Source: Hoyosella levis
GTDB lineage: Bacteria; Actinomycetota; Actinomycetes; Mycobacteriales; Mycobacteriaceae
Direction of reading: 5' to 3'
Assembly: GCF_026008515.1 (NCBI RefSeq)
Contig: NZ_BQYM01000009.1
Coordinates: forward strand, 124,001 to 188,000
DNA length: 64,000 bases
Both the position numbers and the translations under genes were made by a program. Within the stretch, counting starts at the first letter, position 1, and each line of letters starts with the position of its first letter. Below, in pieces: positions 11,509-28,051 of the stretch. Under the pieces are notes generated by a model. That model was given only the letters and a program-made list of their open reading frames with translations, was not told the origin of the DNA and did no database searches.

Positions 11509-11533
11509 GTTTGACGTGCTCATGCTCGGGTAG
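11509..11533 (+). promoter_or_regulatory. SigF-type promoter for the ATP-grasp/CocE pair
   Basis: -35 GTTTGA (11509-11514), 13-bp spacer, -10 GGGTAG (11528-11533). This agrees with the SigB consensus GTTTAA-N12-14-GGGTAT and mycobacterial SigF sites. The ATP-grasp gene starts 67 bp downstream. Confidence 0.75.
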
Positions 11534-11600
11534 CCGACGCTCATTGCACTAGACGGGCTCTATGCCCCATTGCCGGCGCATGAGGAGATGAGCGCTAGCC

Positions 11601-12914
11601 ATGTCCTACACCGTATTGGTACCGGGGATGACACGGGAGCAGCACGACGCGCTCGCGCAGCTCGAGCGGGATCGGGATGTGCGCTTCTATCCGTTGCTCG
11701 CGCCCGAGCGCCTGGTCGCGTCCACGCATATCGAGCTGGCGCCGCTGCTGGAGGAAGCACGCGAGAAGATCGCGGCGTTCGAGCATCCGATCGATGGGAT
11801 CATCCCGCACTGGGATTTCCCCACAAGCGTGCTGGCGCCCATCATGGCGAACGAGCTTGGCTTGCGGTCGCCGACGCTCGGTTCCGTCCTGCGCTGCGAG
11901 CACAAGTACTGGAGCAGGGTGGAGCAGCGCGCGAGCATCCCTGCCTATGTGCCCCGTTTCGAGCTCGTGGATCCTTTGGATGAGAACGCCGCGAGCGAGG
12001 TCGGCCTGGAGTATCCGTTCTGGCTCAAGCCCGTCAAGTCGCACTCCTCGATGCTGGGCTTCCGCATCGACGACAAGGAACAGCTCGAGGCGGCCCTCGC
12101 CGCGATGCGCGCCTCCCTCGGCAACATGGCCGAAGCGTTCGACGAGGCGCTGGAGCTCGTCGGTATCCCGGATGGGATCACCGACGCGGCCGCCTTCCGA
12201 TGCGTGGCGGAGGAGTTGCTGACCGGCCAAGAGTTCGCGATCGAGGGCTCGGTGGCGGGTGACGTGATGCGGGTGCATGGCGTATTCGACATGCAGGTCG
12301 AGCGCGGATCGCATTCGATCGACTCGTTCCTCTACCCCGCAGCACGGGTTCCCGCGCAAGTGCAGGAGGAAGCAATCGGGGCGGCCCGCGATTTCCTCGC
12401 GGATGTGGGGTTCCTCGATGGCTGCTTCAACGCGGAATTCTTCTGGAACCACGAACGGCAGCTCCTCCGCTTGATCGAGGTCAATACCCGGATCTCGCAG
12501 TCCCATACCGAGATGTTCATGAAGGTCGATGGAGCCCCGAATCACCTCGTGGCGCTCGATGTGGCGCTCGGCAGGGCGCCCAGCATGCCGCATCGGCGCG
12601 GAGCGTTCCCCTTCGCCGCCCTGTTCTACGTGACCACGGAGGAGGATGGCGTGGTCGAGGGGGTTCCCGGGCCCGCGGACCTCGAGGCGCTCGAGCGGAC
12701 ATGCCCGGGCGCGAAGCTTCACCTGGCAGTGCGCCCGGGCGACCGGTTATCGCGGATGGCGAACCAGGATGAATATCGATTCCGGCTCGGCACCCTGGTC
12801 ATCGGCCTCGATGATCCCGATGAGCTCGACGATCGATTTCGCGCGTGCCGGGACTGCCTGCCGTTCGCTATCAAGCGATCCTCGGAGGAGGAAAACCATG
12901 GAGTACGTGACTGA
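11601..12914 (+). CDS. ATP-grasp domain protein of unknown substrate
   Basis: 437 residues. The ATP-grasp fold joins a carboxylate to an amine or similar nucleophile through an acyl-phosphate. Visible parts are HWDFPTSVLAPIMANELG (pre-ATP region), YPFWLKPVKSHSSMLGF with the first ATP-binding lysine, a central sensor QEFAIEGSVAGD and the Mg-binding LIEVNTRISQSH. ATG 11601 is preceded by GAGGAG at 11582-11587, a rather long spacing. The gene overlaps the next (CocE/NonD hydrolase) by 17 bp, so ligase and hydrolase are made together under a SigF-type promoter. The product is unknown; a small peptide or amide that the partner hydrolyses is one reasonable idea. Confidence 0.82.
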   Translation: MSYTVLVPGMTREQHDALAQLERDRDVRFYPLLAPERLVASTHIELAPLLEEAREKIAAFEHPIDGIIPHWDFPTSVLAPIMANELGLRSPTLGSVLRCEHKYWSRVEQRASIPAYVPRFELVDPLDENAASEVGLEYPFWLKPVKSHSSMLGFRIDDKEQLEAALAAMRASLGNMAEAFDEALELVGIPDGITDAAAFRCVAEELLTGQEFAIEGSVAGDVMRVHGVFDMQVERGSHSIDSFLYPAARVPAQVQEEAIGAARDFLADVGFLDGCFNAEFFWNHERQLLRLIEVNTRISQSHTEMFMKVDGAPNHLVALDVALGRAPSMPHRRGAFPFAALFYVTTEEDGVVEGVPGPADLEALERTCPGAKLHLAVRPGDRLSRMANQDEYRFRLGTLVIGLDDPDELDDRFRACRDCLPFAIKRSSEEENHGVRD

Positions 12915-14955
12915 TCTTCCGCATGAGGTGGTGGACTGGGAGAACGAGTTCATCCCGCTGCCAGACGGAACCCGGCTCGCAGCGCGCCTGTGGATGCCAC
13001 GCGACGCCGCTGCCTCGCCCGTGCCCGCGGTGCTCGAGTACATCCCCTACCGCAAGCGGGACGTGACCCGGGGCCGCGATGCCTTGAACCATCCGTATAT
13101 CGCCGGGCATGGCTATGCCTGCGTGCGGGTGGACCTGCGCGGCAGCGGGGACTCGGACGGCGTCCTCCGGGACGAGTACCTGGCGACCGAGCACGAGGAC
13201 GCCCTCGACGTCATCGACTGGATAGCACGACAGCCCTGGTGCGACGGCAATGTGGGAATGATGGGCATCTCCTGGGGCGGCTTCAACAGCCTGCAGGTCG
13301 CGGCGAAGCGCCCGCCCGCGCTGAAGGCCATCATCAGTGCCTCGGCCACCGAGGATCTCTACTTCGACAACATGCACTACATGGGTGGGTGCCTCTTGTC
13401 GGACAACCTGTCCGAGGCCACGGTGATGTTCGCGTTCAACAGCTTGCCACCGGACCCGGAGATCGTCGGCGAGCAGTGGCGCGAGATGTGGCACGAGCGC
13501 CTTCGTGGCAGCGGGCTGTGGATCGAGAACTGGCTCAGGCACCAGCATCGCGACGACTACTGGAAGCGCGTGGCGATCAACGAGGACTACGGGATGATCC
13601 AGTGCCCCGTGTTCGCGGTCGGTGGCTGGGCCGATGGATACACCAACTCCATCTTCCGGCTGCTGGAGCATCTTGAGGTTCCCTGCAGGGCGCTGATCGG
13701 GCCGTGGGGCCACAAGTACCCGCATACGGGCGTGCCAGGGCCCGCGATCGGGTTCCTTGACGAGGTGGTGCGCTGGTGGGACCAGTGGTTGAAGGGCAAG
13801 GACACCGGCTTGCTCGACGAGCCGGCCCTACGGGTGTGGATGCAGGATGCCGTTCCGCCGCAGACCTCCTACGACGAGCGGCCCGGCCGCTGGGTGGCAG
13901 AGCAGGGCTGGCCGTCGAGCTCCATCGAGGAGCTGCGCCTCGAGCTGGGCGAGGGCTCGTTGCTCGGCCTCGAGGGTGCGGAGCGGGGCATTGGCTGTGC
14001 GGTGGGGCGGGACAACCACGTCGTGAACTCCCTGCTGAGCGTCGGCATGTTCGCCGGCAAGTGGGCATCTTATGCAGCGCCTCCTGATCTGCCCTCGGAC
14101 CAGCGCGAGGAGGATGGCGGCTCGCTCGTCTACGAGACGGGCGAGCTGACCGATCCGATCGAGATCCTGGGAATGCCGCTATTGCGGCTTGCCGTGGTCG
14201 CGGACAAGCCGGTCGCCATGGTCGCGGTCCGGATCTCGGATGTCGCGCGCACGGGGGAGGCGACCAGGGTCACCTATGGGCTGCTCAACCTCACGCACCG
14301 CGACAGCAGCGCGCGGCCGAGCCCCCTCGTCCCGGGCACCAGCTACGTCGTTGATGTTCCCCTCAACGGGGTCGCGCAGTCGTTCCCGGCGGGGCACAGG
14401 ATCAGGCTGGCGATCTCGAGCTCGTACTGGCCGCTTGCCTGGCCTCCTCCCGAGGCCGCTACGCTAACCATCGATCCCGCGCGCAGCGAGCTGATGCTGC
14501 CGATCCGGGCACCGCGGGCCGAGGATGATCTGCTCAGGCCATTCGGGAAGCCCACGGCTGCGCCGCCGCTCGAGACCACGCGACTGGAACCGGCCGAGCA
14601 TCATTGGAAGCTCATCCGTGACCTCGCATCGGGGGAGTCGACGCTGGAGATCGTGAACGACCAGGGCGAGCTCCGCCTCGACGATACGAAAACCGTGCTG
14701 CGCCGCGCCACCACGGAGTGGTTCTCCAGCGTGCAGAACGATGTGGGCTCGGTGCGGGGCGAGACCCGCACCGTGCGCCGCATTTCGCGCGACGAATGGC
14801 AGATCGAGGTCTCCACGCGCACCGTGATGACGTCCACTGCCGCCGAGTTCTTCCTGACCGCGGAGCTCGATGCCTGGGAGTTCGACGAGCAGCACGGTGA
14901 TTCACGGGTGTACTCGCAGAACTGGAGCACCCGCATCCCGCGGGATCTCGTGTGA
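12898..14955 (+). CDS. CocE/NonD (X-Pro dipeptidyl-peptidase S15) family hydrolase
   Basis: 685 residues, no signal peptide. ATG 12898 with GGAGGAGG at 12884-12891. The N-terminal alpha/beta hydrolase carries nucleophile S125 in MGISWGGF, probable acid D246 in GGWADGY and histidine H272 in GPWGHKYPH. The C-terminal roughly 250 residues form the jelly-roll seen in this family (FPAGHRIRLAISSSYWPLAWP). Family members cleave X-Pro dipeptides, cocaine-like esters or acyl-beta-lactam amides; the substrate cannot be told here. The 17-bp overlap with the ATP-grasp gene implies a shared pathway, perhaps turnover of the compound that the ligase makes. Confidence 0.9.
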   Translation: MEYVTDLPHEVVDWENEFIPLPDGTRLAARLWMPRDAAASPVPAVLEYIPYRKRDVTRGRDALNHPYIAGHGYACVRVDLRGSGDSDGVLRDEYLATEHEDALDVIDWIARQPWCDGNVGMMGISWGGFNSLQVAAKRPPALKAIISASATEDLYFDNMHYMGGCLLSDNLSEATVMFAFNSLPPDPEIVGEQWREMWHERLRGSGLWIENWLRHQHRDDYWKRVAINEDYGMIQCPVFAVGGWADGYTNSIFRLLEHLEVPCRALIGPWGHKYPHTGVPGPAIGFLDEVVRWWDQWLKGKDTGLLDEPALRVWMQDAVPPQTSYDERPGRWVAEQGWPSSSIEELRLELGEGSLLGLEGAERGIGCAVGRDNHVVNSLLSVGMFAGKWASYAAPPDLPSDQREEDGGSLVYETGELTDPIEILGMPLLRLAVVADKPVAMVAVRISDVARTGEATRVTYGLLNLTHRDSSARPSPLVPGTSYVVDVPLNGVAQSFPAGHRIRLAISSSYWPLAWPPPEAATLTIDPARSELMLPIRAPRAEDDLLRPFGKPTAAPPLETTRLEPAEHHWKLIRDLASGESTLEIVNDQGELRLDDTKTVLRRATTEWFSSVQNDVGSVRGETRTVRRISRDEWQIEVSTRTVMTSTAAEFFLTAELDAWEFDEQHGDSRVYSQNWSTRIPRDLV

Positions 14956-14974
14956 GGCCCCGGGCGAGGCGAAG

Positions 14975-14999
14975 GTTTCGGAGGCGCGAGCGGGGGTAT
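14975..14999 (+). promoter_or_regulatory. SigF-type promoter for methyltransferase-CDGSH pair
   Basis: -35 GTTTCG (14975-14980), 13-bp spacer, -10 GGGTAT (14994-14999). The -10 is an exact SigB/SigF match. The GTG of the methyltransferase gene is 42 bp downstream. Confidence 0.75.
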
Positions 15000-15040
15000 C
15001 CCGTGCTCCATCCGATCAAGCGCGACACTGGAGGTGCAGG

Positions 15041-15778
15041 GTGACCCTTGAGATCGAAGGCGTTCCCCCGCAGGACGTCCCCCCGAGGGAAACGGTGCCG
15101 GAGAACGCCGCGGGAGGGGATGCGCGGCCACTCAAGGTGTTCCGCCTCCCCGGGGTCTACCGCCCGCAGGAGGACAGCGTGCTGCTCGCGCGCGAGTACC
15201 TGCGCAGCGGGCTGGCGGGCCGTGGCGCGGTCCTCGACGCGTGCTGCGGGACCGGGTACCTGGCCCTCACAGCCGCTAGGAGCGGCTGCGCATCGGTGAC
15301 GGCGGTCGATTCCTCGATGCGGGCGGTGCTCTCGGCACGGATGAACGCTGCGCTTCTCAAGGCCCGGGTCGATGTCGTCCACAGCGATCTCGCGAGGCTA
15401 GTCGGGGCGCGCTCGTTCGACACCATCCTGACCAACCCTCCCTACGTGCCCTGGCGGGCAAGCGATTCCGCGCGGCCCTGCCCGAACTGGGACGCGGGCG
15501 CGAACGGCCGGAGCGTGATCGATGTCTTGTGCCTCGCCGCCAACCGGCTCCTTCGCCCTGGGGGATCGATGTTGATGGTGCACTCCGGGATCAGCGGAGT
15601 CGAGGAGACGCTTTCCCTGCTCCGGGGAAACGGCCTCGTGGCATCCGTCGTTGCCCGCCAGGGAATCCCTTTCGGGCCAGTGATGCGGCAACGGCGGAAC
15701 GCGCTGGTCAAGGCTGGATACCTCTCTCCCTCCCAGGTCCTCGAGGAGATCGTCGTTGTCCGAGCCGATAAGCGATAA
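15041..15778 (+). CDS. HemK2/MTQ2-like class I methyltransferase
   Basis: 245 residues, GTG start with GGAGG at 15030-15034. The SAM-binding motif is VLDACCGTGYLALTAA and motif IV is TNPPYVPW (N132-P-P-Y), which in the HemK/PrmC and MTQ2 families positions a glutamine or other amide for N-methylation. Actinobacteria encode a separate PrmC, so this is probably the HemK2-type paralogue. Its last 23 bases overlap the CDGSH gene, whose stop meets the stop of the haem-oxygenase-fold gene on the other strand. The three seem to form a conserved module of unknown purpose; the target protein is not known. Confidence 0.82.
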   Translation: MTLEIEGVPPQDVPPRETVPENAAGGDARPLKVFRLPGVYRPQEDSVLLAREYLRSGLAGRGAVLDACCGTGYLALTAARSGCASVTAVDSSMRAVLSARMNAALLKARVDVVHSDLARLVGARSFDTILTNPPYVPWRASDSARPCPNWDAGANGRSVIDVLCLAANRLLRPGGSMLMVHSGISGVEETLSLLRGNGLVASVVARQGIPFGPVMRQRRNALVKAGYLSPSQVLEEIVVVRADKR

Positions 15779-16043
15779 GCCAGCCAGCGACCAGCCACTG
15801 CCGTCCATGCGCTACACCGCCGACGGGCCCTTGCTGGTGCCGGGCCCGGTCCGCATCGAGCTTCCGGACGGGACCGTCGCCGAGTCCGACCGGGTGACGG
15901 TCGCGCTCTGCTTGTGCCGCAGGAGCAGGATCTTCCCCTTCTGCGACACCAGCCACCGGCGGAAGCGCAAGCAACGACGGGCCAGCCCTCTTGGCAGCTG
16001 CGACGAACCGGGGGAGGACGGCGATGGCCAGGGCAAGCGCTAG
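15756..16043 (+). CDS. CDGSH iron-sulfur protein
   Basis: 95 residues. The motif C52-L-C54-x2-S-x3-P-x-C63-D-T-S-H67 fits C-x-C-x2-[ST]-x3-P-x-C-D-x-[ST]-H, which binds a [2Fe-2S] cluster through three Cys and one His. The tail is highly basic and then acidic. The start is probably TTG 15756, inside the methyltransferase gene; ATG 15807 is the alternative and would still keep the whole motif. Bacterial single-CDGSH proteins act as redox or iron-sulfur transfer components. Here it may feed electrons or iron to the adjacent diiron-type enzyme, by inference from neighbourhood. Confidence 0.88.
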   Translation: MSEPISDKPASDQPLPSMRYTADGPLLVPGPVRIELPDGTVAESDRVTVALCLCRRSRIFPFCDTSHRRKRKQRRASPLGSCDEPGEDGDGQGKR

Positions 16044-17098
16044 AGCCCGCCAGGTTCCCGCAGGCTCGTGCGCCCGCGTTCCCACGAGCCGAGCAGCCTC
16101 GCCGACGAGCGCTCCTCGAGGAACTCGCTCGCCCCGATGCCGAAGCTGACATCGTCGCGCAAGTCCGGTCGGGCCCGCAGCAGCTCGCCCACGACATCGG
16201 TGCGCATCAATTGCTCGTGGACGGCATCGGCCTCGATGTGCTCGCGATAGAAGTGCACGCACGCATGAGGGGCGCCAAGCCGCTCGAGGGCATCCATCAT
16301 CACCCGCGCGCCCGGCCCGTTGGAGATCTCCGCCGCGGCGAACATCCCGACGAGCGCGCCGAGCCGCGATCGGTGCAACCCGCACAGTGACATCAGGTTC
16401 ACGGTCGCCAGGGTCTCCGCCGGCACCAGGTCGAGGTAGGCGAGGTATCGCGAGTCGAGGTCCGCGGCGTCCAGCAGGTCGGCGAAGAGGCGGGAGTGCA
16501 TGCGCGAATGCTGCCCGCCGCCATACTCGTCGAACTCCACGGCCACGAGCGCGGCCTTGGGCCGTCCGGTGAGGCGCGGGATCGCCCATGCCTGCGGGTC
16601 GGCTTCCTTCAACTGATAGATGGATCGATGGATGAATAGCTCGCGCATCTGTGCCCACGTGCCTGAATCTCGCAGGAACGTGCCCACCGTGCCGGTGCTC
16701 GGGGGCGGGGCGCACAGGTCCTCGAGCACAAGCACGGGGTCCTCGATCTCCACGTGCTCGCGAAGAACATCGAGGAACAGCGACTCGAGCGAGGCTCGCG
16801 CACCCAGCAGAGCCAGGTGCCATTCCCAGCCCGGATCGACCCCGGCGAACCCCTGGTAGTGGAGCTCGTAGCACACGGTCAGCGCGAGCTGCGCGTCCTC
16901 GCCCAGCGCATCGCAACCGCGCGCGAGCCGGGCCAGGCCAGCAAGGCCATCATCGGGCACCTCGGGTGCCGGGCGGGACAATGCCTCGATCAGGCCTGCG
17001 GATATCGGTCCTCGCGGGGAGGGCAGCGGCGGGCCAGGGTAGTCGTGCTCCCCGGCTGGCTGAGGCTCGGCGAGGGCGGCGGCCTGGTGGGTGCTCAT
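16040..17098 (-). CDS. iron-containing redox enzyme, haem-oxygenase-like fold
   Basis: 352 residues, helical. The sequence fits the iron-containing redox enzyme family (Haem_oxygenase_2/HDO type): EDAQLALTVCYELHYQGFAGVD, LVAVEFDEYGGGQHSRMH, HRSRLGALVGMFAAAE and HFYREHIEADAVHEQL supply the Glu/His residues expected for a diiron centre. ATG 17098 is chosen because it follows GGGGAAG and the residues further upstream look non-coding. Relatives perform N-oxygenation, desaturation or C-C cleavage, so the reaction is open. It converges with, and overlaps by 4 bp, the CDGSH gene, a pairing I recall in other actinobacteria. Confidence 0.8.
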   Translation of the reverse strand: MSTHQAAALAEPQPAGEHDYPGPPLPSPRGPISAGLIEALSRPAPEVPDDGLAGLARLARGCDALGEDAQLALTVCYELHYQGFAGVDPGWEWHLALLGARASLESLFLDVLREHVEIEDPVLVLEDLCAPPPSTGTVGTFLRDSGTWAQMRELFIHRSIYQLKEADPQAWAIPRLTGRPKAALVAVEFDEYGGGQHSRMHSRLFADLLDAADLDSRYLAYLDLVPAETLATVNLMSLCGLHRSRLGALVGMFAAAEISNGPGARVMMDALERLGAPHACVHFYREHIEADAVHEQLMRTDVVGELLRARPDLRDDVSFGIGASEFLEERSSARLLGSWERGRTSLREPGGL

Positions 17099-17108
17099 GC
17101 CGCAGGGC

Positions 17109-17133
17109 TTCCCCAGCATGACGGGTGGTAAAC
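17109..17133 (-). promoter_or_regulatory. possible SigF-type promoter for the haem-oxygenase-fold enzyme
   Basis: On the minus strand: -35 GTTTAC (17133-17128), 13-bp spacer, then GGGGAA (17114-17109). The -10 departs from GGGTAT and doubles as the ribosome-site region of the gene, so this is weaker than the other sites. The identical spacer is the main argument. Confidence 0.4.
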
Positions 17134-17167
17134 GTCGTGCCCGGCCCGCGAGAGGGCGGCCCGCCAC

Positions 17168-17192
17168 GATTAATCCACGCATGCCCGGGTAT
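17168..17192 (+). promoter_or_regulatory. SigF-type promoter for flavodoxin-like reductase and DUF5709 genes
   Basis: -35 GATTAA (17168-17173), 13-bp spacer, -10 GGGTAT (17187-17192). One base differs from the SigB consensus GTTTAA. The downstream ATG is at 17227 with a strong AAGGAGG. Confidence 0.68.
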
Positions 17193-17226: not shown

Positions 17227-17841
17227 ATGAGCCAACCACGCGCGCTCGCGCTGATCTGCAGCCTCAAGCCCAGCGCCGAGGAATCGAGCAGCGAGCTGCT
17301 CGCGAAGCAGATTCTCTCCGCGCTGGACGAGCACGGGGTGCGCGGATCGTCCGTGCGGGTGGCGGATCACGTGATCCCGCCAGGCGTGGGCCATGAGATG
17401 AGCGATGACGACGCCTGGCCCGCCATCCGGGAGGAAGTGCTCGAGAGCGAGGTGCTCGTGCTGTGCACGCCGATCTGGCTCGGGCATCCCTCGAGCGTGG
17501 CGCAGCGCGTGCTCGAGCGCCTCAACGCCGATCTCGGCGAGGCCGGGGAGGACGGGCGCCCGATCATGTGGGACAAGGTCGCTGTGGTGGGAGTCGTCGG
17601 CAACGAGGACGGCGCGCACAAGGTGACGGCTGATCTGTTCCAGGGGCTCAACGACCTTGGCTTCACGATCCCCGCGCACGGCTCTGCCTACTGGGTGGGG
17701 GAGGCCCGTGGCGGAACGGACTACCGCGACCTCGACGAGATGCCCGCGGGGCTCGCGAAGAACATCAGCAATCTCGCGCGCAATGCCGCCCACCTTGCGG
17801 GGATTCTCGCCACCGCGCCCTATCCGGCGCCACGCGACTAG
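17227..17841 (+). CDS. NAD(P)H-dependent FMN reductase / flavodoxin-like oxidoreductase
   Basis: 204 residues. ATG 17227 follows AAGGAGGAGCT. The flavodoxin-like fold is shown by ALALICSLKPS (phosphate-binding loop after strand 1), VLVLCTPIWLGHPSSVAQRVLERL (the family TPIWxGxPS flavin-binding turn) and DKVAVVGVVGNEDGAH. No membrane segment. It probably reduces quinones, FMN or azo-type electrophiles with NAD(P)H. Together with the SigF-type promoter this suggests a redox-defence role. DUF5709 follows 43 bp downstream on the same strand, likely one transcript. Confidence 0.85.
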   Translation: MSQPRALALICSLKPSAEESSSELLAKQILSALDEHGVRGSSVRVADHVIPPGVGHEMSDDDAWPAIREEVLESEVLVLCTPIWLGHPSSVAQRVLERLNADLGEAGEDGRPIMWDKVAVVGVVGNEDGAHKVTADLFQGLNDLGFTIPAHGSAYWVGEARGGTDYRDLDEMPAGLAKNISNLARNAAHLAGILATAPYPAPRD

Positions 17842-17884
17842 CCCGTGCTCTCGCGCGCGGCTGCAACGAGAGGAGATTCAACCT

Positions 17885-18166
17885 ATGGCACATGATGACC
17901 ACGACCGCCAGGACGCCACCCCGCCGCAAGACACCGGGGAGCCGGACCAGGTGGAGTCCGATCCCGCCTCGCTCAGCAGCGCGGAGTACCTCGACGAGGA
18001 GCGACTCGGCGAGAACCCGCTCGCGGGAGCGATGGCGCCACCGGATGACTGGACGGAGGCCGATGCCCGAGGGACGACTCCCGAGGAAGCGCGGGAGGGA
18101 GAGTCGCTCGACGACAAGCTCGAGCAGGAGGAGCCGGAAGTCCTGCCGGGTGAATCACCGCCCTAG
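17885..18166 (+). CDS. DUF5709 protein
   Basis: 93 residues, strongly acidic and predicted mostly disordered. ATG 17885 with AGGAG nine bases upstream. The core SAEYLDEERLGENPLAGA followed by PPDDW and the later EEAREGESLDDKL matches the actinobacterial DUF5709 family, which has no known function. These small acidic proteins often appear in general stress regulons; here the gene lies behind a SigF-type promoter. No Cys and no membrane segment. Confidence 0.85.
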   Translation: MAHDDHDRQDATPPQDTGEPDQVESDPASLSSAEYLDEERLGENPLAGAMAPPDDWTEADARGTTPEEAREGESLDDKLEQEEPEVLPGESPP

Positions 18167-18224: not shown

Positions 18225-18551
18225 TCACATGTCGAGAGGTCCTTTGCCCTCAGCGGATACCTCGCGGTCCTTGGTGTCGAGGTGGGTCCTGCGCTTGCGC
18301 CGCGCCTGCCATCGCCACGAGACGACCGCCGTGACGAGAAGCACCAGGCAAATCGTGCCAGCGAGCCACGCTGGCACGGCTCGTCCCGAGGCCGCTGCGA
18401 CCAGAGCGAGCGGGAGCGCGATCAGCGCGAGCACGATCGATGCGTACGCGAGCCAGGCCACGGCCCGCCCGGCCCGGTCGGGAAACGTTCGTTCCGCGTC
18501 GGGGTACTGGGGCTCGGGGTGCTGGGGCTCGGGGTGCTGGGGCTCCTTCAT
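18225..18551 (-). CDS. small two-helix membrane protein
   Basis: 108 residues. The N-terminus carries a QHPEPQHPEPQYPD repeat, followed by two membrane segments (about 34-55 and 60-80) and a very basic cytoplasmic segment RWQARRKRRTH. ATG 18551 overlaps the stop of the upstream Vms1/Rv2629-like gene as ATGA, so it is translated by coupling. Family not recognised. Its position at the end of a three-gene operon suggests a stress-linked envelope protein. Confidence 0.75.
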   Translation of the reverse strand: MKEPQHPEPQHPEPQYPDAERTFPDRAGRAVAWLAYASIVLALIALPLALVAAASGRAVPAWLAGTICLVLLVTAVVSWRWQARRKRRTHLDTKDREVSAEGKGPLDM

Positions 18552-19630: not shown

Positions 19631-21160
19631 TCAGGATCGACTTCCTTTCCATTCCAGGGATTGGCAGGGCGTGAGGTCCCGGGTGGCCGGGCCCTCGATC
19701 AGGGCTCCATCCGGCTCGAAGCGAGAGCCATGCAAGGGACAATCCCAGGTTCGTTCGGCGGGGTTCCAGGCGAGCAGCCCCTTGAGGTGCGGGCAGATCG
19801 CGGAGACCGTGCTGGTGGAGCCATCCACCGTGCTCGAGGCGACCGGTCGCAAGCGGTGCCAGTGCACGACGCCCTCGCCCTCCTTCGGGGGCGAGGTCCT
19901 GAGCCGGGCAAGCCGCGGCAGGGCCTTGGCCACCGCGGCGCCCACTTGCGCGTTCTGCGAGAGGAACCCGGGCAGCCTGCGCGCCACGAGCGAGCGCTGG
20001 CTATCGAAGAGCTCCATGCCGGGAGCCGTGGTGCTGGTCAGCCGGGCCGCGAGGATGCGGCCCGCGGCGACCCCGTTGGTCATGCCCCATTTCGCATAGC
20101 CACTGGCGATCAGGATCGGGGTGCTCCGGGGCAGGAGAGGACCGACGAGCGGCAGGCCATCGATGCTGCGGTAATCCTGGGCAGACCACTGGTGCGACGG
20201 CGACAGGGCAGGAAAGTGCTGCGCCGTCCATTCGGTGAGGTCGCGCACTCGTGCCTGCGTGTCTTTTGCCCGTCCCGTGACATGACCGTTCCCGCCGACG
20301 AGGAGGTACCCCGGCGCGGAGCGCAGGGATCGCGGGGGAGCAACATCGGGTCGATCGATCGATACGTACATGCCTTCCGGGCTCAACGCGTCCGCAGCGA
20401 GCGGGAAGGCGGCCAGGTAGGAGCGCTCGGCCTCGAGCTTGGCGAAGAACCCGCCACGATCGAGGATCGGTGTACCTGTTGCTAGCACGACCCGATCAGC
20501 GGCGATCTCGCCATGGGACGTGCGTACCCTCGTGGCGCCGGTAGCGGTTACTCCCCGCACGGTGATGCCCTCGATGATGGTGCCACCGAGCGAGATGATC
20601 TCCTCCGCGAGCGCTATCGACAGCTCCACCGGATCGCACTGCGCCTGCCCCTCGAGGCCCACGAAGCCCGCGATGGGGAACGGCACGTAGTCGAGCGGGG
20701 CGCCCTGCCCCCAGCCGACATCGAGCCCCGCGGCGCGGGCCGCCTCGGCCTCGCGGTGCAGCGCCGGGAGCGTGGAGCGCGACTGGGCGATCGAGTATGC
20801 CGCGCGCTCCTGCACTGGCACGCCAGCGCGAGCGCAGAAGTCGCGTAGCCACTGCAGCGCCGCCTGGTTGATGGCCACGTACTCGCGTGCCCCATCAGTG
20901 CCGTGGGAGCGCGCGATCTCGCTGATCCGGGCCCCCTGGAGGCACGTGGCCTTCGCGGTGGTCTTGCCCGTGGTGAGCCCGGCGACGCCGTGCCGGTCGA
21001 GCACCGTCACCTCGAGCCCGGCGCGCGCGCACTCGAGGCCACATACCAGCCCCGTGATGCCAGCACCGACGATCAGCACCTCCGCGGCCGATGGCACCTC
21101 GATGGCGCGCGTGCCGGGGTGCGGTTGCGCGTTCCTCGTATCGAGCCAGAGCGATCCCAT
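19631..21160 (-). CDS. FAD-dependent oxidoreductase with C-terminal Rieske domain
   Basis: 509 residues. The N-terminus is a DAO-type FAD domain (EVLIVGAGITGLVCGLECARAGLEV, Rossmann GxGxxG; then TTGKTTAKATCLQG). The FAD-binding second half includes DYRSIDGLPLVGPL and ASGYAKWGMTNGVAAG. The C-terminal roughly 90 residues form a Rieske [2Fe-2S] domain with CPHLKGLL and DCPLHGSRF (C-x-H ... C-x2-H). This fused architecture is widespread but its substrate is unknown. ATG 21160 lies only nine bases after a SigF-like -10, so the mRNA may be nearly leaderless. First gene of a three-gene minus-strand operon. Confidence 0.88.
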   Translation of the reverse strand: MGSLWLDTRNAQPHPGTRAIEVPSAAEVLIVGAGITGLVCGLECARAGLEVTVLDRHGVAGLTTGKTTAKATCLQGARISEIARSHGTDGAREYVAINQAALQWLRDFCARAGVPVQERAAYSIAQSRSTLPALHREAEAARAAGLDVGWGQGAPLDYVPFPIAGFVGLEGQAQCDPVELSIALAEEIISLGGTIIEGITVRGVTATGATRVRTSHGEIAADRVVLATGTPILDRGGFFAKLEAERSYLAAFPLAADALSPEGMYVSIDRPDVAPPRSLRSAPGYLLVGGNGHVTGRAKDTQARVRDLTEWTAQHFPALSPSHQWSAQDYRSIDGLPLVGPLLPRSTPILIASGYAKWGMTNGVAAGRILAARLTSTTAPGMELFDSQRSLVARRLPGFLSQNAQVGAAVAKALPRLARLRTSPPKEGEGVVHWHRLRPVASSTVDGSTSTVSAICPHLKGLLAWNPAERTWDCPLHGSRFEPDGALIEGPATRDLTPCQSLEWKGSRS

Positions 21161-21169: not shown

Positions 21170-21194
21170 CTACCACTGCGGGCGCGCTTCTAAT
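21170..21194 (-). promoter_or_regulatory. possible SigF-type promoter for FAD/Rieske operon
   Basis: On the minus strand: GATTAG (21194-21189), 13-bp spacer, TGGTAG (21175-21170). Both boxes are one base from those of stronger copies in this island. The gene ATG is at 21160, so transcription would begin almost at the start codon. Confidence 0.5.
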
Positions 21195-21196
21195 CA

Positions 21197-21243: not shown

Positions 21244-21409
21244 ATGAGCGGCACGCGAGGTATGGGATGAGGGGGATATGGGCATACCCCGGTCGAGACA
21301 CGACGCGGCGCATCGCGCTCGCTGATGGCGAGCCACGCCGATTGTGCACGGATGAAATTTTTGGAGCGGGGCCCGCCGCGCCCGTCGCTCGCTACAGGAA
21401 AGGCCGGAT

Positions 21410-22705
21410 ATGCGAATCGCTATGGTCTCCGAGCAGGCCAGTCCTCTCGCGCCCCCCGGCATGGTCGGCTGGGGCGGACAGAATGTGCATGTCGCGGCGC
21501 TGGCCACGGCACTGGCGCGCCGTGGGCATGAGCTGACGGTCTATACGCGGCGCGATGATGCGAGCCAGCCCGAGCGGATGATCAGCGAGGATGGGTACCA
21601 GGTGGTGCATGTGGCGGCCGGGCCGCCGAAGCGCCTGCCGAAGGACGAGGTCATGCCGCACATGACTGAGTTCGCCAGTTTCCTCCGGGCCGAGTGGTCG
21701 CGGGAGGCTCCCGATGTGGCGCACGCGCACTTCTGGACGTCGGGCATCGCTACCCAGCTGGTGTCGCGTGCCCTTGGCACCCCGACGATCCAGACCTTTC
21801 ATGTTCTCGGTGCGGCGCAGCACAGGTCCCGGGGCGGCCCGGAGGCCAGCCCGGGCGAGAGCGCGGACGGCCGCTTCCGCACGGAGCGCGCCATCGCGCG
21901 GGCAGCATCCCGGGTGATCGCGGCAAGCTCGGAGGAAGCGTTCGAGCTTGCCCGGATGGGAGTGCCGGGCACACGCATCTCACGAGTGCCCTGTGGTGTT
22001 GATCTCGACCTATTCAAGCCCCCGGTGCTGCGCGAGCGCCCCGCGGGGCAACGAAAGCGAATCGTTTCCGTGGGCCGGCTCGCGCCCGAGAAGGGCTTTG
22101 ATGTCGCCATCGCTGCCGTAGCGAGGATCCCGTCGGCGGACCTGGTCATCGCGGGCGGCCCGGAGGAAGCTGGTCCCACGCATGGCAGGGAGGCCCAGCG
22201 ATTGCGCTCGCTCGCACGGGAGCTCGGGATCGAGCAGCGCGTCCATCTGCTCGGTCACGTGCCACGGGATCGCATGCCGGAGCTGCTGCATACGGCTGAT
22301 GCCGTGCTGTGCACCCCGCGCTACGAATCGTTCGGCATGGTTCCGCTCGAGGCGATGGCGTGCGGCGTGCCTGTGGTGGCGCACGCGGTCGGTGGGATCG
22401 TCGATACCGTGATCGATGGGGTGACCGGCGTGCTGGTGCCGCCGCAGCGGCACCGCCAGCTGGTCGACGCGCTGCGCCTCGTGCTGTCCCGGCCCGCGCT
22501 CGCGGAGGGGTGGGGCACAGCTGGCCGCGATCGCGCGGTCGCCCGCTACTCGTGGGACCAGGTGGCTACCGAGACCGAGCATGCCTACCAGCATGCCTTG
22601 GCCGACCAGGCAGGGAGTCCCGGGTGGAACGAGACAGGGCAGAACGAGACAGGTCGGCCATCCGCGGGAGCGCCCCGGCAGCTATCGGGACGAGCGGAAC
22701 AGTGA
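21410..22705 (+). CDS. GT4-family glycosyltransferase
   Basis: 431 residues, cytoplasmic GT-B enzyme. N-terminal acceptor domain with GMVGWGGQNVHVAALATALARRGHELTVYTRRDD; C-terminal donor domain with ISVGRLAPEKGFD-type stretch (IVSVGRLAPEKGFDVAIAA) and the retaining EX7E motif in YESFGMVPLEAMACG. ATG 21410 after AGGAAAGG. The last about 35 residues are low-complexity with an imperfect NETGQNETGR repeat. Similar enzymes build mannosylated or glucosylated lipids and trehalose-type sugars; the acceptor here is unknown. It stands alone, divergent from the FAD/Rieske operon. Confidence 0.88.
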   Translation: MRIAMVSEQASPLAPPGMVGWGGQNVHVAALATALARRGHELTVYTRRDDASQPERMISEDGYQVVHVAAGPPKRLPKDEVMPHMTEFASFLRAEWSREAPDVAHAHFWTSGIATQLVSRALGTPTIQTFHVLGAAQHRSRGGPEASPGESADGRFRTERAIARAASRVIAASSEEAFELARMGVPGTRISRVPCGVDLDLFKPPVLRERPAGQRKRIVSVGRLAPEKGFDVAIAAVARIPSADLVIAGGPEEAGPTHGREAQRLRSLARELGIEQRVHLLGHVPRDRMPELLHTADAVLCTPRYESFGMVPLEAMACGVPVVAHAVGGIVDTVIDGVTGVLVPPQRHRQLVDALRLVLSRPALAEGWGTAGRDRAVARYSWDQVATETEHAYQHALADQAGSPGWNETGQNETGRPSAGAPRQLSGRAEQ

Positions 22706-23325: not shown

Positions 23326-23406
23326 CCACCATGCGGGAGGGAGCCGTGCGCTCGCTCCGCGGCGCTCTCCCCATCATGCTGGCCCGCTGAGCAAAGGTGG
23401 CATCCC

Positions 23407-23431
23407 GTTTAGGCCGTCTCGTGCTGGGTAA
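23407..23431 (+). promoter_or_regulatory. SigF-type promoter for SRPBCC/FAD/alcohol dehydrogenase operon
   Basis: -35 GTTTAG (23407-23412), 13-bp spacer, -10 GGGTAA (23426-23431), 41 bp ahead of the SRPBCC start. Both boxes are within one base of the SigB consensus. Confidence 0.75.
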
Positions 23432-23472
23432 ATCACCAGCAGCACTCGCCCCCCCGGTACAAGGCGGACCCC

Positions 23473-23907
23473 ATGGCAACGACGCTGCGCACCAGCGCTA
23501 CCCCCACCGACATCTGGAACGTGCTCAGCGACGCCTGGCTCTATTCCGGCTGGGTCGTCGGGTCCTCCCGGATCAGGGACGTGGACCCGCAATGGCCCCG
23601 CCAGGGCACGCGCTTTCACCACTCGATAGGGGCATGGCCGCTGCTCAACAATGACTACACCGAGGTCGTGTCGAGCGAACCGCTCCGGTGCCTGGAGCTT
23701 GTCGCGCGTACCTCGCCCTTCGCCAAAGCGCGTGTGCGGGTCACGATCGACGAAGTCGAGCACGGTTCCGAGATCACTCTCGAGGAGTGGGTCATCACCG
23801 CGCCCGCCAAGTGGATCCCACGCCCCGCGCAGGAGACGCTCGCGGCACCCCGGAACAAGGAGTGCCTGCGGCGGCTCGCGATGATCGCGGAGGGTCGCAG
23901 CACATGA
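23473..23907 (+). CDS. SRPBCC (START-like) family protein
   Basis: 144 residues with the helix-grip START-like fold: TSATPTDIWNVLSDAWLYSGWVVGSSRIRDVDP at the N-terminus, then alternating strands and a long C-terminal helix. Such proteins bind hydrophobic ligands or act as cyclases. ATG 23473 has no strong ribosome site. Its stop overlaps the next gene's start as ATGA, so it is coupled to the FAD oxidoreductase. A ligand-delivery role for that enzyme is plausible but unproven. Confidence 0.82.
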   Translation: MATTLRTSATPTDIWNVLSDAWLYSGWVVGSSRIRDVDPQWPRQGTRFHHSIGAWPLLNNDYTEVVSSEPLRCLELVARTSPFAKARVRVTIDEVEHGSEITLEEWVITAPAKWIPRPAQETLAAPRNKECLRRLAMIAEGRST

Positions 23908-25433
23908 CAGCCGTAGACGCGGTCGTCATCGGCTCCGGGCCCAACGGGCTGGTGGCTGCCAACGTGCTTGCTGATCGCGGATGGAGCGTCCAGGTGCTCG
24001 AGGCGGCGTCCGAGCCCGGTGGTGCCGTTCGGTCCGTCCAGCGGGAGCCAGGCATCACCTGGGACCTCTTCAGCTCCTTCTACCCGTTCGCGCTCGCCAC
24101 CCCCGCTATCCCCAGCCTCGGTCTCGAGGCGTTCGGGCTGCGTTGGTGCCACGCCCAGTACCCGCTCGCGCACATCTATGGCGAGCACGCCGGCGATGCC
24201 ATCCGCATCGAGTCGACGCCCGCGAGGACCGCGGCTGCCCTCGCGCGGACCAGCATGCACGACGCCCGCGCATGGCTCGAGCTCTGCGACGAATGGAACG
24301 TGATCGGTCCGCACCTCCTGCGCATGATGTTCGCGACCTTCCCCCCGGTGCGGGGCGCGACCGGCCTGCTGCGCTCCCAGGGCCCGGCCGGGGCACTCCG
24401 CCTCGCGCGCTTCCTCGCCCTGCCGGTCCGGCGCATGGAGACCGAGCTGTTCGAGAGCCAGGCAGCCAGGGCCCTGCTGCGCGGCAATTCCCTGCATGCT
24501 GACGTCCCGGCGGATGCACCAGTAAGCGGAGTGGTCGGCTATGTGCTCGCCATGCTCGCCCAGCAGTACGGCTTTCCCACCCCGGAAGGTGGCTCGGGGG
24601 AGCTGACGGGCGCGCTCGCCGGCAGGCTGTCCGAAGCAGGAGGACACATCGCGTGCGACTCGAAGGTCGAGCGCGTGATCGTCGAGGGCGGCCGCGCGAC
24701 GGGCGTGGGGACCGCGGGCGGGGACGTTGTCCACGCCCGCCGGGCCGTGATCGCCGATACCAGCGCCCCGGCGCTCTACCAGCAGCTGCTCCCGCGCGAG
24801 GCAGTGCCCGAGAAGGTCACGCGCGACATCGGGTCCTTCGCCTGGGACCCGCCCGTCGTCAAGGTCAACTACTCGGTCCGCGGGGCCATCTCCTGGACCG
24901 CGCCCAGCGCGCGCCACGCCGGAACCGTGCATGTGGGCTCGCTCGAGGAGAACGCCTCGCCCCTGGTCATCGTGGGGCAGATGAGCGAGGCCGATCCGTC
25001 CCGGTCCCCCCACGGCATGACGAGCGCCTGGGCATACGCCAAGGCATCGCCGACGAGCACCAGCGAGGAGCAGGAGCAGCTCGCCGCGTGGATCACCAGC
25101 ACCATCGACGCGCGTGCCCCGGGCTTCGCCGAGCACGTCGTGGCAATGGAGACGCAGACCGGGGCGGACATGGAGCGCGCCAACGCGAACCTGCACCGAG
25201 GAGCGATCAACGGGGGGACGTTCGAGCTCCACCAGCAATACGTGTTCCGCCCCATGCCTGGAATGGCGGACAACCACACGCCCATCGCGGGCCTCTATCT
25301 CGGCAGTGCCTCCGCGCACCCCGGGGGAGGAGTGCACGGCATGTGCGGGTGGAACGCCGCGCATGCCGCGCTGGGGGCCCGCTGGCCCCGCCAGCGCATC
25401 CGTGCCGCGATCAACAAGAGACTCACCCGCTGA
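23904..25433 (+). CDS. phytoene-desaturase-like FAD oxidoreductase
   Basis: 509 residues. N-terminal dinucleotide-binding VVIGSGPNGLVAANVLADRG followed by GGAVRSVQ; C-terminal FAD signature LYLGSASAHPGGGVHGMCGWNAA. This matches the CrtI-like NAD(P)/FAD oxidoreductase group common in actinobacteria but without a carotenoid cluster nearby, so a carotenoid substrate is not supported. ATG 23904 has GGAGGG ten bases upstream and overlaps the SRPBCC gene. An alcohol dehydrogenase gene follows 11 bp later; the three form one SigF-type transcription unit. Confidence 0.86.
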   Translation: MTAVDAVVIGSGPNGLVAANVLADRGWSVQVLEAASEPGGAVRSVQREPGITWDLFSSFYPFALATPAIPSLGLEAFGLRWCHAQYPLAHIYGEHAGDAIRIESTPARTAAALARTSMHDARAWLELCDEWNVIGPHLLRMMFATFPPVRGATGLLRSQGPAGALRLARFLALPVRRMETELFESQAARALLRGNSLHADVPADAPVSGVVGYVLAMLAQQYGFPTPEGGSGELTGALAGRLSEAGGHIACDSKVERVIVEGGRATGVGTAGGDVVHARRAVIADTSAPALYQQLLPREAVPEKVTRDIGSFAWDPPVVKVNYSVRGAISWTAPSARHAGTVHVGSLEENASPLVIVGQMSEADPSRSPHGMTSAWAYAKASPTSTSEEQEQLAAWITSTIDARAPGFAEHVVAMETQTGADMERANANLHRGAINGGTFELHQQYVFRPMPGMADNHTPIAGLYLGSASAHPGGGVHGMCGWNAAHAALGARWPRQRIRAAINKRLTR

Positions 25434-25444
25434 CAGGAGCGACC

Positions 25445-26623
25445 ATGAAGGCTGTGACGTGGCAGGGACGCCGCTCGATCTCGGTGGATTCCGTGCCCGA
25501 TCCACGTATCGAGGAAGGCACGGATGCCATCATCGAGGTGACGACTACCGCCATCTGTGGCTCCGACCTGCATCTCTACGAGGTTCTTCTGCCCTTCATG
25601 CACGCCGGGGACATTCTCGGCCACGAGCCCATGGGTCGCGTGGTGGAGGTCGGGCGCGACGTGCGCCAGCTCTCCGTCGGGGACCGGGTCGTCATCCCGT
25701 TCCAGATCTCGTGCGGAAGCTGCTTCATGTGCGACCGGGGGCTGCAGACGCAGTGCGAGACCACTCAGGTCCGCGAGCAGGGCAGCGGCGCCGCGCTGTT
25801 CGGGTATTCCGAGCTCTACGGCAGCATTCCCGGTGGCCAGGCCCAATACCTACGCGTGCCTCACGCCGATGCCACCTCCATCGTCGTCCCTGAAGGGCCA
25901 GGCGACCAACGCTTTCTCTACCTCTCCGATGTGTTGCCCACAGCCTGGCAAGCTGTCGAGTACACCGGGGCCAAGCCGGGCGATACGGTGGCGATCCTGG
26001 GGCTAGGCCCCATCGGGGACATGGCCGCCCGCATTGCCCTGCATCGGGGGATGCGCGTGATCGGGATCGATCCCGTGGCCGAGCGGCGCGACCGCGCGAG
26101 CGACCGGGGCGCCGAGATAGTAGGGGCAAACGATGTGGACGAGCCCAGTGACGTGGTGCGGGACATGACCGGGGGGCGCGGACCGGACGCGGTCATCGAT
26201 GCTGTCGGCATGGAGGCACACGGCTCGCCGGCCGCCAAGCAGGTGCAGCATGCTGCGGGACTGCTGCCGGACCGGATCGGCAAGAAAGTGTTCAGCACGG
26301 CCGGGATAGACCGGCTCGCCGCGTTGTTGACGGCGATCGACATGGTCCGCAGGGGTGGCACGCTGAGCATCTCGGGCGTCTACGGAGGCATGCTCGACCC
26401 ACTACCGATGATGACCTTGTTCGATAAGCAGGTCCAGATCCGCATGGGGCAGGCGAACGTGCTGCGCTGGGCGCCCGACATCCTGCCGCTCCTTGACGAC
26501 ACAGACATCCTGGGGGTGGACCAGTTCGCCACCCACGTCCTGCCGCTCGAGGATGCGCCCCGCGCCTATGAGACGTTCCAGGCCAAGACCGATGGTGCCG
26601 TCAAGATCCTTCTCACGCCATGA
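25445..26623 (+). CDS. zinc-dependent alcohol dehydrogenase, formaldehyde-dehydrogenase-like
   Basis: 392 residues, MDR superfamily. Catalytic zinc ligands lie in AICGSDLHLYE and GHEPMGRVVEVG; the structural zinc lobe is CGSCFMCDRGLQTQCE. The Rossmann glycine motif is AILGLGPIGDMAA. Insertions after the lobe (QGSGAALFGYSELYGSIPGGQAQYLRVP) resemble glutathione-independent formaldehyde dehydrogenases and related actinobacterial enzymes. AGGAG precedes ATG 25445. It probably oxidises an alcohol or aldehyde with NAD+. Its 3' end overlaps the convergent gene by 11 bp. Confidence 0.88.
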   Translation: MKAVTWQGRRSISVDSVPDPRIEEGTDAIIEVTTTAICGSDLHLYEVLLPFMHAGDILGHEPMGRVVEVGRDVRQLSVGDRVVIPFQISCGSCFMCDRGLQTQCETTQVREQGSGAALFGYSELYGSIPGGQAQYLRVPHADATSIVVPEGPGDQRFLYLSDVLPTAWQAVEYTGAKPGDTVAILGLGPIGDMAARIALHRGMRVIGIDPVAERRDRASDRGAEIVGANDVDEPSDVVRDMTGGRGPDAVIDAVGMEAHGSPAAKQVQHAAGLLPDRIGKKVFSTAGIDRLAALLTAIDMVRRGGTLSISGVYGGMLDPLPMMTLFDKQVQIRMGQANVLRWAPDILPLLDDTDILGVDQFATHVLPLEDAPRAYETFQAKTDGAVKILLTP

Positions 26624-27296: not shown

Positions 27297-27371
27297 CCTG
27301 GGCCGGCTTCCTTGTAGTAATTGGCCTCGTAGCGATTGGGTGTGCTGGCTCCGCTGGGAAACCCCTCGGGG

Positions 27372-27407
27372 CCATGCCGGCAGCGGGGTCGAGTACTGCC
27401 GGCATGG
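27372..27407. terminator. hairpin terminator, 12-bp perfect stem
   Basis: CCATGCCGGCAG (27372-27383) pairs with CTGCCGGCATGG (27396-27407). It lies just beyond the stop of the minus-strand SRPBCC gene and may end its transcript. No clear T-run is present. Confidence 0.6.
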
Positions 27408-27416
27408 GGTCTGGGG

Positions 27417-27878
27417 CTATGGGGCAGGGGGCTCGACGTTGCCGCGCCAGCTTCCGTCGGCGGACCCTTGCTCCTCGATGAAGGTCTTGAAGCGCTTCAT
27501 ATCCGCCTTGATCTGCACATCAATGATGTTCAGGGCATCGCCGATATCCTCGGCGATCCCTTCGGGCTCGACGTCGATCTGGGCCGTCACCCGGGACTTC
27601 CCCTCATCGAGGCGATGGAAGGTCACCACTCCGGCATGGGTCGGTCCCTCGGTCGAGTGCCACGCGACGCGCTCGTCGGGGTGCTGCTCATCGACCACGG
27701 CATCGAACTCGCGGGAGACCGGGCCAAAACGGACATGAAACCGCAGATGGGTATCGTCGAGCTGCTCGACCCGCTCGACATGCTGCATGAATTGTGGATA
27801 TTCCTCGAACTGGGTCCATTGGTTGTAGGCCACATTGACCGGTACATCGACGTCGATTGATTTCTCCACAGTTCCCAT
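27417..27878 (-). CDS. SRPBCC family protein, RatA/cyclase-dehydrase-like
   Basis: 153 residues. START-like fold: TVEKSIDVDVPVNVAYNQWTQFEEYPQFMQHVERVEQLDD is typical of polyketide cyclase/dehydrase and RatA-like proteins; the C-terminal long helix DIGDALNIIDVQIKADMKRFKTFIEEQ is present. ATG 27878 is chosen because GGAAGGA lies upstream and MGTVEKSI fits the family start. It is monocistronic with its own SigF-type promoter. Family members are frequent general stress proteins with unknown ligands. Confidence 0.85.
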   Translation of the reverse strand: MGTVEKSIDVDVPVNVAYNQWTQFEEYPQFMQHVERVEQLDDTHLRFHVRFGPVSREFDAVVDEQHPDERVAWHSTEGPTHAGVVTFHRLDEGKSRVTAQIDVEPEGIAEDIGDALNIIDVQIKADMKRFKTFIEEQGSADGSWRGNVEPPAP

Positions 27879-27937
27879 TGATGCATTCCTTCCATGGTGC
27901 TTCGTATTGATCACCGCTCAAGCTTTCTCCATGAGGC

Positions 27938-27962
27938 CTACCCGGGATGCCACCGCCTAAAC
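27938..27962 (-). promoter_or_regulatory. SigF-type promoter for the SRPBCC gene
   Basis: On the minus strand: -35 GTTTAG (27962-27957), 13-bp spacer, -10 GGGTAG (27943-27938). The ATG lies 59 bases downstream at 27878. It is divergent from another SigF-type promoter only 65 bp away. Confidence 0.75.
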
Positions 27963-28026
27963 GGCCTTTGGCGATGCAGGCCTTTCGTGGCTGGCCGAGG
28001 CGAGTGGTCGCGTTGCACGGGTACTG

Positions 28027-28051
28027 GTTTCACGGGCCCGGGGATGGGTAG
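28027..28051 (+). promoter_or_regulatory. SigF-type promoter for SDR-ChaB-DUF4383 operon
   Basis: -35 GTTTCA (28027-28032), 13-bp spacer, -10 GGGTAG (28046-28051). The SDR start is about 120 bp downstream. Confidence 0.72.

Follow-up and report, generated by a model that had tools for sequence, protein, structure and literature searches.

Here we describe a stretch of 64,000 bases from Hoyosella levis (contig NZ_BQYM01000009.1, positions 124,001 to 188,000, or G000:C9:124001-188000; called the window below) that very probably holds a SigF general-stress island, in which about nine units lying next to the sigma factor gene sigF each appear to have a SigF-type promoter of their own. The genome measures 3.61 Mb in 35 contigs, and we compared it with its congeners under the name Lolliginicoccus, namely L. 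lacisalsi (G002), L. suaedae (G001) and a third genome, G003. In the proposed mechanism, the anti-sigma factor RsbW, encoded beside sigF, would hold SigF until anti-anti-sigma proteins, one of them probably the island's own STAS protein, release it under stress. RNA polymerase carrying SigF would then start the nine or so neighbouring units separately, from five strict and four weaker promoters, and not as one long operon. The products would include redox proteins (an FMN reductase, an FAD/Rieske oxidoreductase, a haem-oxygenase-like protein and a CDGSH protein), as well as a Balon/Rv2629-like protein and a methyltransferase of the release-factor type.

Genes were called with a self-trained codon model and named via Pfam and NCBIfam. 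The sigF gene (10700..11461, +, with its start at GTG 10700 or ATG 10754) encodes a protein with the Pfam Sigma70 regions 2, 3 and 4 and scores 282 bits against TIGR02980 (cut-off 234), which bears out the assignment to the SigB/SigF/SigG family made in the initial annotation of this DNA. Directly before it, as in three congeners and two Hoyosella loci, stands rsbW (10258..10707, +, called from a TTG), so that a sigma gene of the SigB/F/G family sits beside an rsbW-type anti-sigma gene; the RsbW product is HATPase_c_2-like, its match to PF13581 (E 1.4e-5, 25.5 bits) falling under the gathering score of 27.4.

Our strict box is GTTT-N15-GGGTA, which is equivalent to GTTTNN-N13-GGGTAN, and the control for motif counts is the reversed pattern. 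All six sites named initially are present letter for letter. Five are strict: GTTTGA-N13-GGGTAG (11509..11533, +), GTTTCG-N13-GGGTAT (14975..14999, +), GTTTAG-N13-GGGTAA (23407..23431, +), GTTTAG-N13-GGGTAG (27938..27962, -) and GTTTCA-N13-GGGTAG (28027..28051, +). The sixth, GATTAA-N13-GGGTAT (17168..17192, +), begins with GATT and is not strict. The called start codon follows GGGTA after 42, 42, 60, 68 and 119 bases at the five strict sites and after 35 bases at the GATT site. Two weaker copies had also been proposed, and both are conserved, although the second begins at 21195 and not, as first given, at 21194. The one at 17109..17133 (-) reads GTTTAC-N13-GGGGAA and ends 10 nucleotides before the ATG at 17098; in the form GTTTACC-N12-GGGGA it is kept in all three genomes that have the gene (the window's, L. 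lacisalsi and L. suaedae). The variant at 21170..21195 (-) reads GATTAG-N13-GTGGTA, or has a spacer of N14 if the -10 hexamer is taken as TGGTAG, and is kept as GATTA-N15-TGGTA in four of four Lolliginicoccus genomes, the window's included. Overlooked at first was a degenerate box, GTAT-N16-GGGCA (21260..21284, +), before the gene of a GT4 glycosyltransferase; at that place L. suaedae, G003 and H. altamirensis have a strict form (GTTT-N15/16-GGGTA). The published SigF consensus is GTTT-N(15-17)-GGGTA (available part of PMC7390352), and promoters of this form stand before several separate units of the window.

These sites are far more frequent than expected and are concentrated in the neighbourhood of sigF. 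The strict pattern matches five times in the window against 0.04 expected, and none of 100 shuffles reached five. When G[TA]TT was scanned with spacers of 9 to 18, all six matches with a spacer of 13 lay inside the island and the sole other match, at 33669 (-), had a spacer of 9. With as many as two mismatches permitted, a site lies within 200 bases of 9 of the 20 island genes (reversed control 0 of 20), a count that omits the haem-oxygenase-like gene, whose open reading frame was then called from an ATG inside its box; among genes outside the island the figure is 8 of 42, equal to the control (8). Genome-wide, the N15 pattern matches 12 times and its reverse twice, the N14-16 pattern 18 times and its reverse 9 times; 5 of the 12 N15 sites fall within the 16.5 kb of the island, or 0.46% of the genome (P = 1.6e-9). 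In the 20 kb on either side of the window there are none. Sites are therefore denser near sigF than in the remainder of the genome, and the equal density elsewhere that had been named as grounds for dropping the idea is not what the scan found. That much of the regulon is contiguous, as first supposed, holds for these five strict sites; the remaining ones are scattered, and the genes next to them include those for hemerythrin, DUF326, YetF, DJ-1/PfpI and DNA-alkylation repair proteins. Likewise, a fixed 13-bp spacer is true of the strict window sites, but it is the canonical SigF spacing, and N16 sites are also present in the islands of L. suaedae and G003.

The congeners show which letters are held in place. 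The flanks of the island (guaB and guaB3 on one hand, MFS and g35 on the other) are 96-98% identical in L. suaedae and L. lacisalsi, and the island genes range from 58 to 98% identity, with gains and losses. A comparison of four orthologous promoters, each taken from three genomes, found all 36 of the core positions unchanged, against 17 of the 60 in the spacers; the sites were preselected as strict, and only the contrast between core and spacer is informative. The box at 14975 is strict in all three Lolliginicoccus genomes with the gene (the window's, L. lacisalsi and L. suaedae), and those at 11509 and 27962 are strict in L. lacisalsi and G003, the former before the orthologous gene. The first 20 kb of the corresponding stretches hold 5 (L. 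lacisalsi), 6 (L. suaedae) and 7 (G003) strict sites with N14-16, against 1, 0 and 0 for the reversed pattern, and the following 15 kb hold none in any of the three. The islands take up 5 of 12, 4 of 10 and 5 of 14 of the N15 sites of these genomes, respectively.

Genes change behind the boxes. L. suaedae lacks the ATP-grasp/CocE genes, and there the gene of the MTQ2/HemK2-type methyltransferase (MTQ2 below) is the next one after sigF and has a box of its own; in G003 the run from MTQ2 through the CDGSH and haem-oxygenase-like genes to the FMN reductase is missing, and the box before ATP-grasp is retained. The box at 23407 is strict at the same place in L. lacisalsi, where it precedes an intact SRPBCC gene, and in L. 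suaedae, where that gene has shrunk to about 45 residues. G003 has a strict box at the equivalent place with a different gene behind it, and no counterpart of this SRPBCC protein (SRPBCC-a) there (best E 2.2). Two swapped-in genes sit at the position of the window's SRPBCC unit, each behind a SigF box: a 465-aa gene in L. lacisalsi (L031:14877-16363), by eye like a carboxylate-amine ligase, and a 67-aa gene in G003 (L035:12964-13268), by eye like CsbD.

The wider family offers a comparison of genomes with and without SigF, presence being scored as a SigF match below 1e-40. In the 144 genomes with SigF the two strands together carry 2134 N15 sites, compared with 937 for the reversed pattern, and 123 genomes are above their control and 13 below. 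The 57 genomes without SigF hold 257 against 318, with 19 above and 29 below. The per-genome ratios differ with a Mann-Whitney P of 1.7e-11, a value that, like the other P values across genomes, is overstated, since the genomes compared are kin. One genus, g19, splits cleanly, with 23/4 (site/reversed) where SigF is present and 9/19 where it is absent. The DNA upstream of MTQ2 was then compared in 35 genomes with SigF (four of g19, followed by the first one or two of each further genus; one MTQ2 copy per genome, its place being among the matches listed) and in 17 of the 19 genomes that have MTQ2 without SigF, G019 and G090 being left out. A strict box with N14-17 lies within 500 bases of MTQ2 in 16 of the 35 and in none of the 17; admitting relaxed boxes raises the first count to 26 of 35 and leaves the second at none of 17 (the relaxed pattern reversed gives 2 and 0, respectively). 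Within 350 bases, 12 of the 35 have a strict and 22 a strict or relaxed box. In g19 alone, three of four genomes with SigF have the strict box, and four of four when relaxed boxes count, against none of three without SigF. In these genome comparisons, then, the box goes with SigF.

A motif of this kind could also be a compositional coincidence, or an intergenic repeat element of a GC-rich genome. One identical string does recur across genera and mimics the N16 pattern: GTTTACGGCGTGGACTACCAGGGTA (L045:4344 and several other genomes), which we take to be probably ribosomal RNA and which inflates the N16 counts. Against this, the spacers vary among sites and species and the core is retained. Loci chosen without regard to the motif also speak against it. 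An MTQ2 alignment scan of the named genomes gave 62 loci, of which 61 were used (L110, a 40-residue match, was excluded; L091, with a stop within its stretch, was left out of alignment A3). Over 1.19 Mb in all, these 61 loci hold 136 strict sites and a single control match, though not 136 separate events, since related species share sites. In 300 bases upstream of MTQ2 plus 30 inside the match, GTTT-N14-16-GGGTA occurs in 29 of the 61 loci, with 0 for the reversed control, 0 on the opposite strand and a mean of 0.1 in shuffles; 13 further loci, mostly of Saccharothrix and Kibdelosporangium, have GTTT-N15-GGGAA instead. CDGSH and haem-oxygenase-like genes are each found in 59 of the 61. Among 128 strict sites in 59 wider loci, where only N15 and N16 were collected, 54 are N16. 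Counting loci with at least 200 bases of upstream DNA, 19 of 27 have a relaxed box ahead of the FAD/Rieske gene and 18 of 59 have one ahead of the haem-oxygenase-like gene, with no control match for either. The pattern of conservation and the contrast between genomes with and without SigF, with no box before MTQ2 in any of the 17 without it, largely refute coincidence or repetition, which we consider very improbable.

The linkage itself recurs. In the family, 112 of 201 genomes, the window's genus included, have both SigF-type and MTQ2 places among the matches listed. Of these, 42 carry the two genes on one contig no more than 40 kb apart, where about 2.4 would be expected. The linked genomes span 10 genera, Lolliginicoccus and Hoyosella contributing 6 of the 42. 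Stretches from fifteen linked genomes of 8 further genera, 325 kb in total, hold 61 strict sites and 1 control match, with 1-6 sites per stretch. A close likeness is found in Rhodococcus (g43; R. aetherivorans, R. ruber, R. gordoniae and others), where sigF is accompanied by the zinc-dependent alcohol dehydrogenase, FAD/Rieske, SRPBCC, CrtI-like, MTQ2 and CDGSH genes, in several genomes also by haem-oxygenase-like and SDR genes, with 3-6 strict boxes per 20-33 kb in the eight genomes examined. The Rhodococcus islands differ from the window in that they lie on the opposite side of sigF, MTQ2 being 13-31 kb away from it, and that the stretches examined matched neither ATP-grasp nor CocE.

Whether selection holds the regulon near its sigma factor is less clear, as the island might be ordinary inherited synteny. 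In 9 other genera with both genes no genome is linked (for example, none of 14 in g6 and 12 in g22), and one genus supplies 13 of the 42 linked genomes, as inheritance alone would allow. The excess of linked genomes over expectation argues the other way, as does the side on which MTQ2 lies, upstream of sigF in Rhodococcus and a g45 genome and downstream in Lolliginicoccus and Hoyosella; so does the swapping of genes behind boxes within one genus. We regard simple synteny as a serious account of the proximity, if the less probable one.

A number of observations weigh against control of the whole island by the window's SigF. At the place of the 17168 box the sequence is degenerate in both L. lacisalsi and L. 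suaedae, and the 28027 box is degenerate at the matching place in L. lacisalsi. Control is not universal in the wider loci, since boxes are scarce or lacking before SDR (2 of 20 loci), SRPBCC-a (2 of 17) and the CrtI-like gene (0 of 16). G003 has no genome-wide N15 excess (14 sites against 25 reversed) despite its SigF and its island. The difference between genomes with and without SigF is small in g46 (13/7 and 27/22) and absent in g9 (84/50 and 10/6). Of the 17 genomes without SigF, 13 are of one genus, g4, so that the absences amount to about three independent ones; 9 of the 35 genomes with SigF have no box before MTQ2, and 4 of the 16 strict matches, over 370 bases ahead of MTQ2, may be promoters of other genes. 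MTQ2 is retained where SigF is missing and hence is not tied to SigF alone. Upstream of rsbW-sigF itself, the six regions examined hold only loose matches and no strict SigF box, and autoregulation of the pair through such a box was rejected. This lack is not strictly defining, because in M. smegmatis, too, rsbW is preceded by a promoter independent of SigF (available part of PMC7390352). Finally, a paralogue with a site beside it could also read the boxes.

That paralogue is a second SigF-type sigma gene on another contig (L037:9622-10296, or G000:C6:31621-32295, -), whose product is 46% identical to the window's SigF. If it were the main reader of the boxes, the sigF of the window would be a mere neighbour of them, and its likeness to SigF and the motif sites nearby would fit. 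Only two strict sites lie near it, however, one of them N16, while the window's sigF is syntenic with sites in three congeners and two Hoyosella loci and the linkage of a SigF-type gene with MTQ2 recurs in 10 genera; we consider this alternative improbable, and the sigF of the window remains our preferred regulator. Around the paralogue, GTTT-N16-GGGTA lies at C6:31577-31601, just behind the gene and before a DUF6131 gene, and a STAS gene and a DJ-1/PfpI gene are found near it. Two further observations stand apart. In g4 (G006, G052, G072 and others) MTQ2 is kept without SigF and without a box before it in 13 of 13 genomes examined; therefore MTQ2 probably has a SigF-independent role in that genus. 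At 10104-10258, upstream of rsbW, a TANNNT-like box conserved by eye in Lolliginicoccus and Hoyosella is a candidate housekeeping promoter of rsbW-sigF.

The island also encodes a STAS anti-anti-sigma-like protein (22930-23325, +), which was passed over in the initial annotation and which we took from the list of open reading frames. It carries a STAS domain (PF13466, 32.6 bits, above the cut-off of 29.2). In a weak alignment (E 0.02 to 0.09) its Ala69 falls at the serine of D-S-S-G in SpoIIAA, presumably the phosphorylated one, and Ser70 adjoins it; the residue at the Ala69 position is valine in three Hoyosella copies and isoleucine in one G003 copy. Cys67 and Cys71 are kept in three Lolliginicoccus copies, three Hoyosella copies and one of two G003 copies, and copies of a second type (G003, L051 and L052) keep the first cysteine only. 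RsfA (M. tuberculosis Rv1365c, M. smegmatis MSMEG_1786) is likewise a STAS protein encoded in a SigF island and may be a counterpart. Because Cys67 and Cys71 are kept and RsfA loses its activity when two redox-responsive cysteines form a disulphide (available part of PMC7693655), redox control of the window's STAS protein is plausible by analogy. A search of 200 bases around the STAS gene gave no SigF site, and the gene therefore may be transcribed from the GT4 promoter or from a promoter of its own. A bolder and rather doubtful reading would join these threads: a family-wide SigF "regulon neighbourhood", in which genes are swapped behind ready-made SigF promoters, with its own STAS switch that is gated by Cys-x3-Cys and non-phosphorylatable at the usual serine, so that redox and not a kinase would open the island.

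Following sigF, the units of the island are laid out on both strands. The first (11601..14955, +) has an ATP-grasp gene (11601-12914; PF13535) and a CocE/PepX-type hydrolase (12898-14955; PF02129, PF08530). The second (15041..16043, +) pairs the MTQ2/HemK2-type methyltransferase (15041-15778) with the CDGSH protein (15756-16043; PF09360). The methyltransferase belongs to its family by TIGR00537 (93.4 bits, cut-off 87), its NPPY motif (N132-P133-P134-Y135) is invariant across 12 sequences, and its nearest solved structures are those of N6AMT1/HEMK2. Next comes the haem-oxygenase-like protein of the "iron-containing redox enzyme" family (16040..17098, -; PF14518 E 3.5e-54), whose start we moved from 17119 to 17098 because the first ATG falls inside the box. 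The unit at 17227..18166 (+) consists of the FMN reductase-like gene (17227-17841; PF03358) and a 93-aa acidic protein (17885-18166), previously labelled DUF5709, a label that Pfam did not confirm, no family matching it at E<=0.001 or 0.1.

On the minus strand, the unit at 18225..21160 comprises the FAD/Rieske oxidoreductase (19631-21160; PF01266, PF00355), a Rv2629/Balon-like, eRF1-like protein (18548-19630; PF18844) and a small holin-X-like membrane protein (18225-18551; PF07332, below its cut-off). The Rv2629-like protein reaches 296.4 bits against NF052289, the Rv2629 family of ribosome hibernation factors, under the cut-off of 320, and we therefore call it similar to that family and do not count it among its members. 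Methylation of this eRF1-like baeRF2 protein by the MTQ2-type enzyme was considered and dropped, as the window protein has no GGQ or GAQ; nor is there one in 9 orthologous baeRF2-like segments, some of which are the same DNA twice and two of which have only 123 residues. Beyond lie the MshA-like GT4 glycosyltransferase (21410..22705, +; below the MshA family cut-off), the STAS gene, and one unit (23473..26623, +) of SRPBCC (23473-23907; PF10604 26.3 bits, cut-off 27.4), amine oxidase/CrtI-like (23904-25433; PF01593) and zinc-dependent alcohol dehydrogenase (25445-26623; PF08240) genes. A family-less gene (26613-27185, -), for which no site was found, precedes an SRPBCC/polyketide-cyclase-like gene (27417..27878, -; PF03364), and the last unit (28170..29933, +) consists of SDR (28170-29009; PF13561), ChaB/Rho_N (29034-29474; PF06150) and DUF4383 (29532-29933; PF14325) genes.

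A general-stress system of this type is the SigB regulon of Bacillus, with its RsbW/STAS partner switching and GTTT...GGGTA promoters, which is mostly scattered; unlike it, a large share of the regulon in the window's genome would lie beside the sigma gene. The arrangement, the box and the spacing are already known from Mycobacterium smegmatis. In the available part of PMC4694148, 27 of the 39 locus numbers of MSMEG_1766-1804 show a decrease in both growth phases when sigF is deleted, and its Table 1 gives sites of the GTTT-N15 or N16-GGGTA type for many of these genes, including GTTT-N15-GGGTA 29 bases from the start of the "methylase" MSMEG_1771 and GTTT-N15-GGGAA at 11 bases from the start of MSMEG_1773; a "Stress Response Gene Cluster", MSMEG_1750-1804, is described with its promoters printed in the available part of PMC5445863. 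As far as these excerpts go, the cluster resembles the island in its contiguous genes near rsbW-sigF, with many units having their own promoter, in its methylase, chaB and SDR genes, and in the partner-switch proteins within it (RsfA, 1786, and RsbW3, 1787). The promoter of MSMEG_1773 (GTTTACC...GGGAA near the start) also recalls the GTTTACC box just before the ATG of the window's haem-oxygenase-like gene. The two differ in that the M. smegmatis cluster lies upstream of sigF and the window's downstream, and that the excerpts give a SigF-dependent promoter before chaB-rsbW-sigF in M. smegmatis, whereas the window's rsbW-sigF has no strict SigF box. The window's island includes ATP-grasp/CocE, GT4, Rv2629-like and FAD/Rieske genes, whose M. 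smegmatis counterparts were not looked for. An exact search for the published MSMEG_1771 promoter gave no match in 401 family genomes, and the likeness to M. smegmatis genes therefore rests only on names, order and promoter likeness. We found no family-wide account of a SigF island in the literature, as judged by title and with subscription journals mostly outside the search. What is new here is the Lolliginicoccus member, the promoter footprints, the family-wide linkage and the contrast between genomes with and without SigF.

For the family, these results mean that a neighbourhood of a SigF-type gene and a core regulon gene, known from one model mycobacterium, recurs in ten genera with its content rearranged, and they provide a candidate core set of SigF genes that is testable outside the pathogens. 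The natural comparisons of genomes with and without SigF support the SigF promoters ahead of experiment. A ribosome-hibernation-like protein and a release-factor-type methyltransferase, both obscure in role, are placed behind the boxes of a named stress regulator, and the putative STAS switch adds a new detail that is itself testable.

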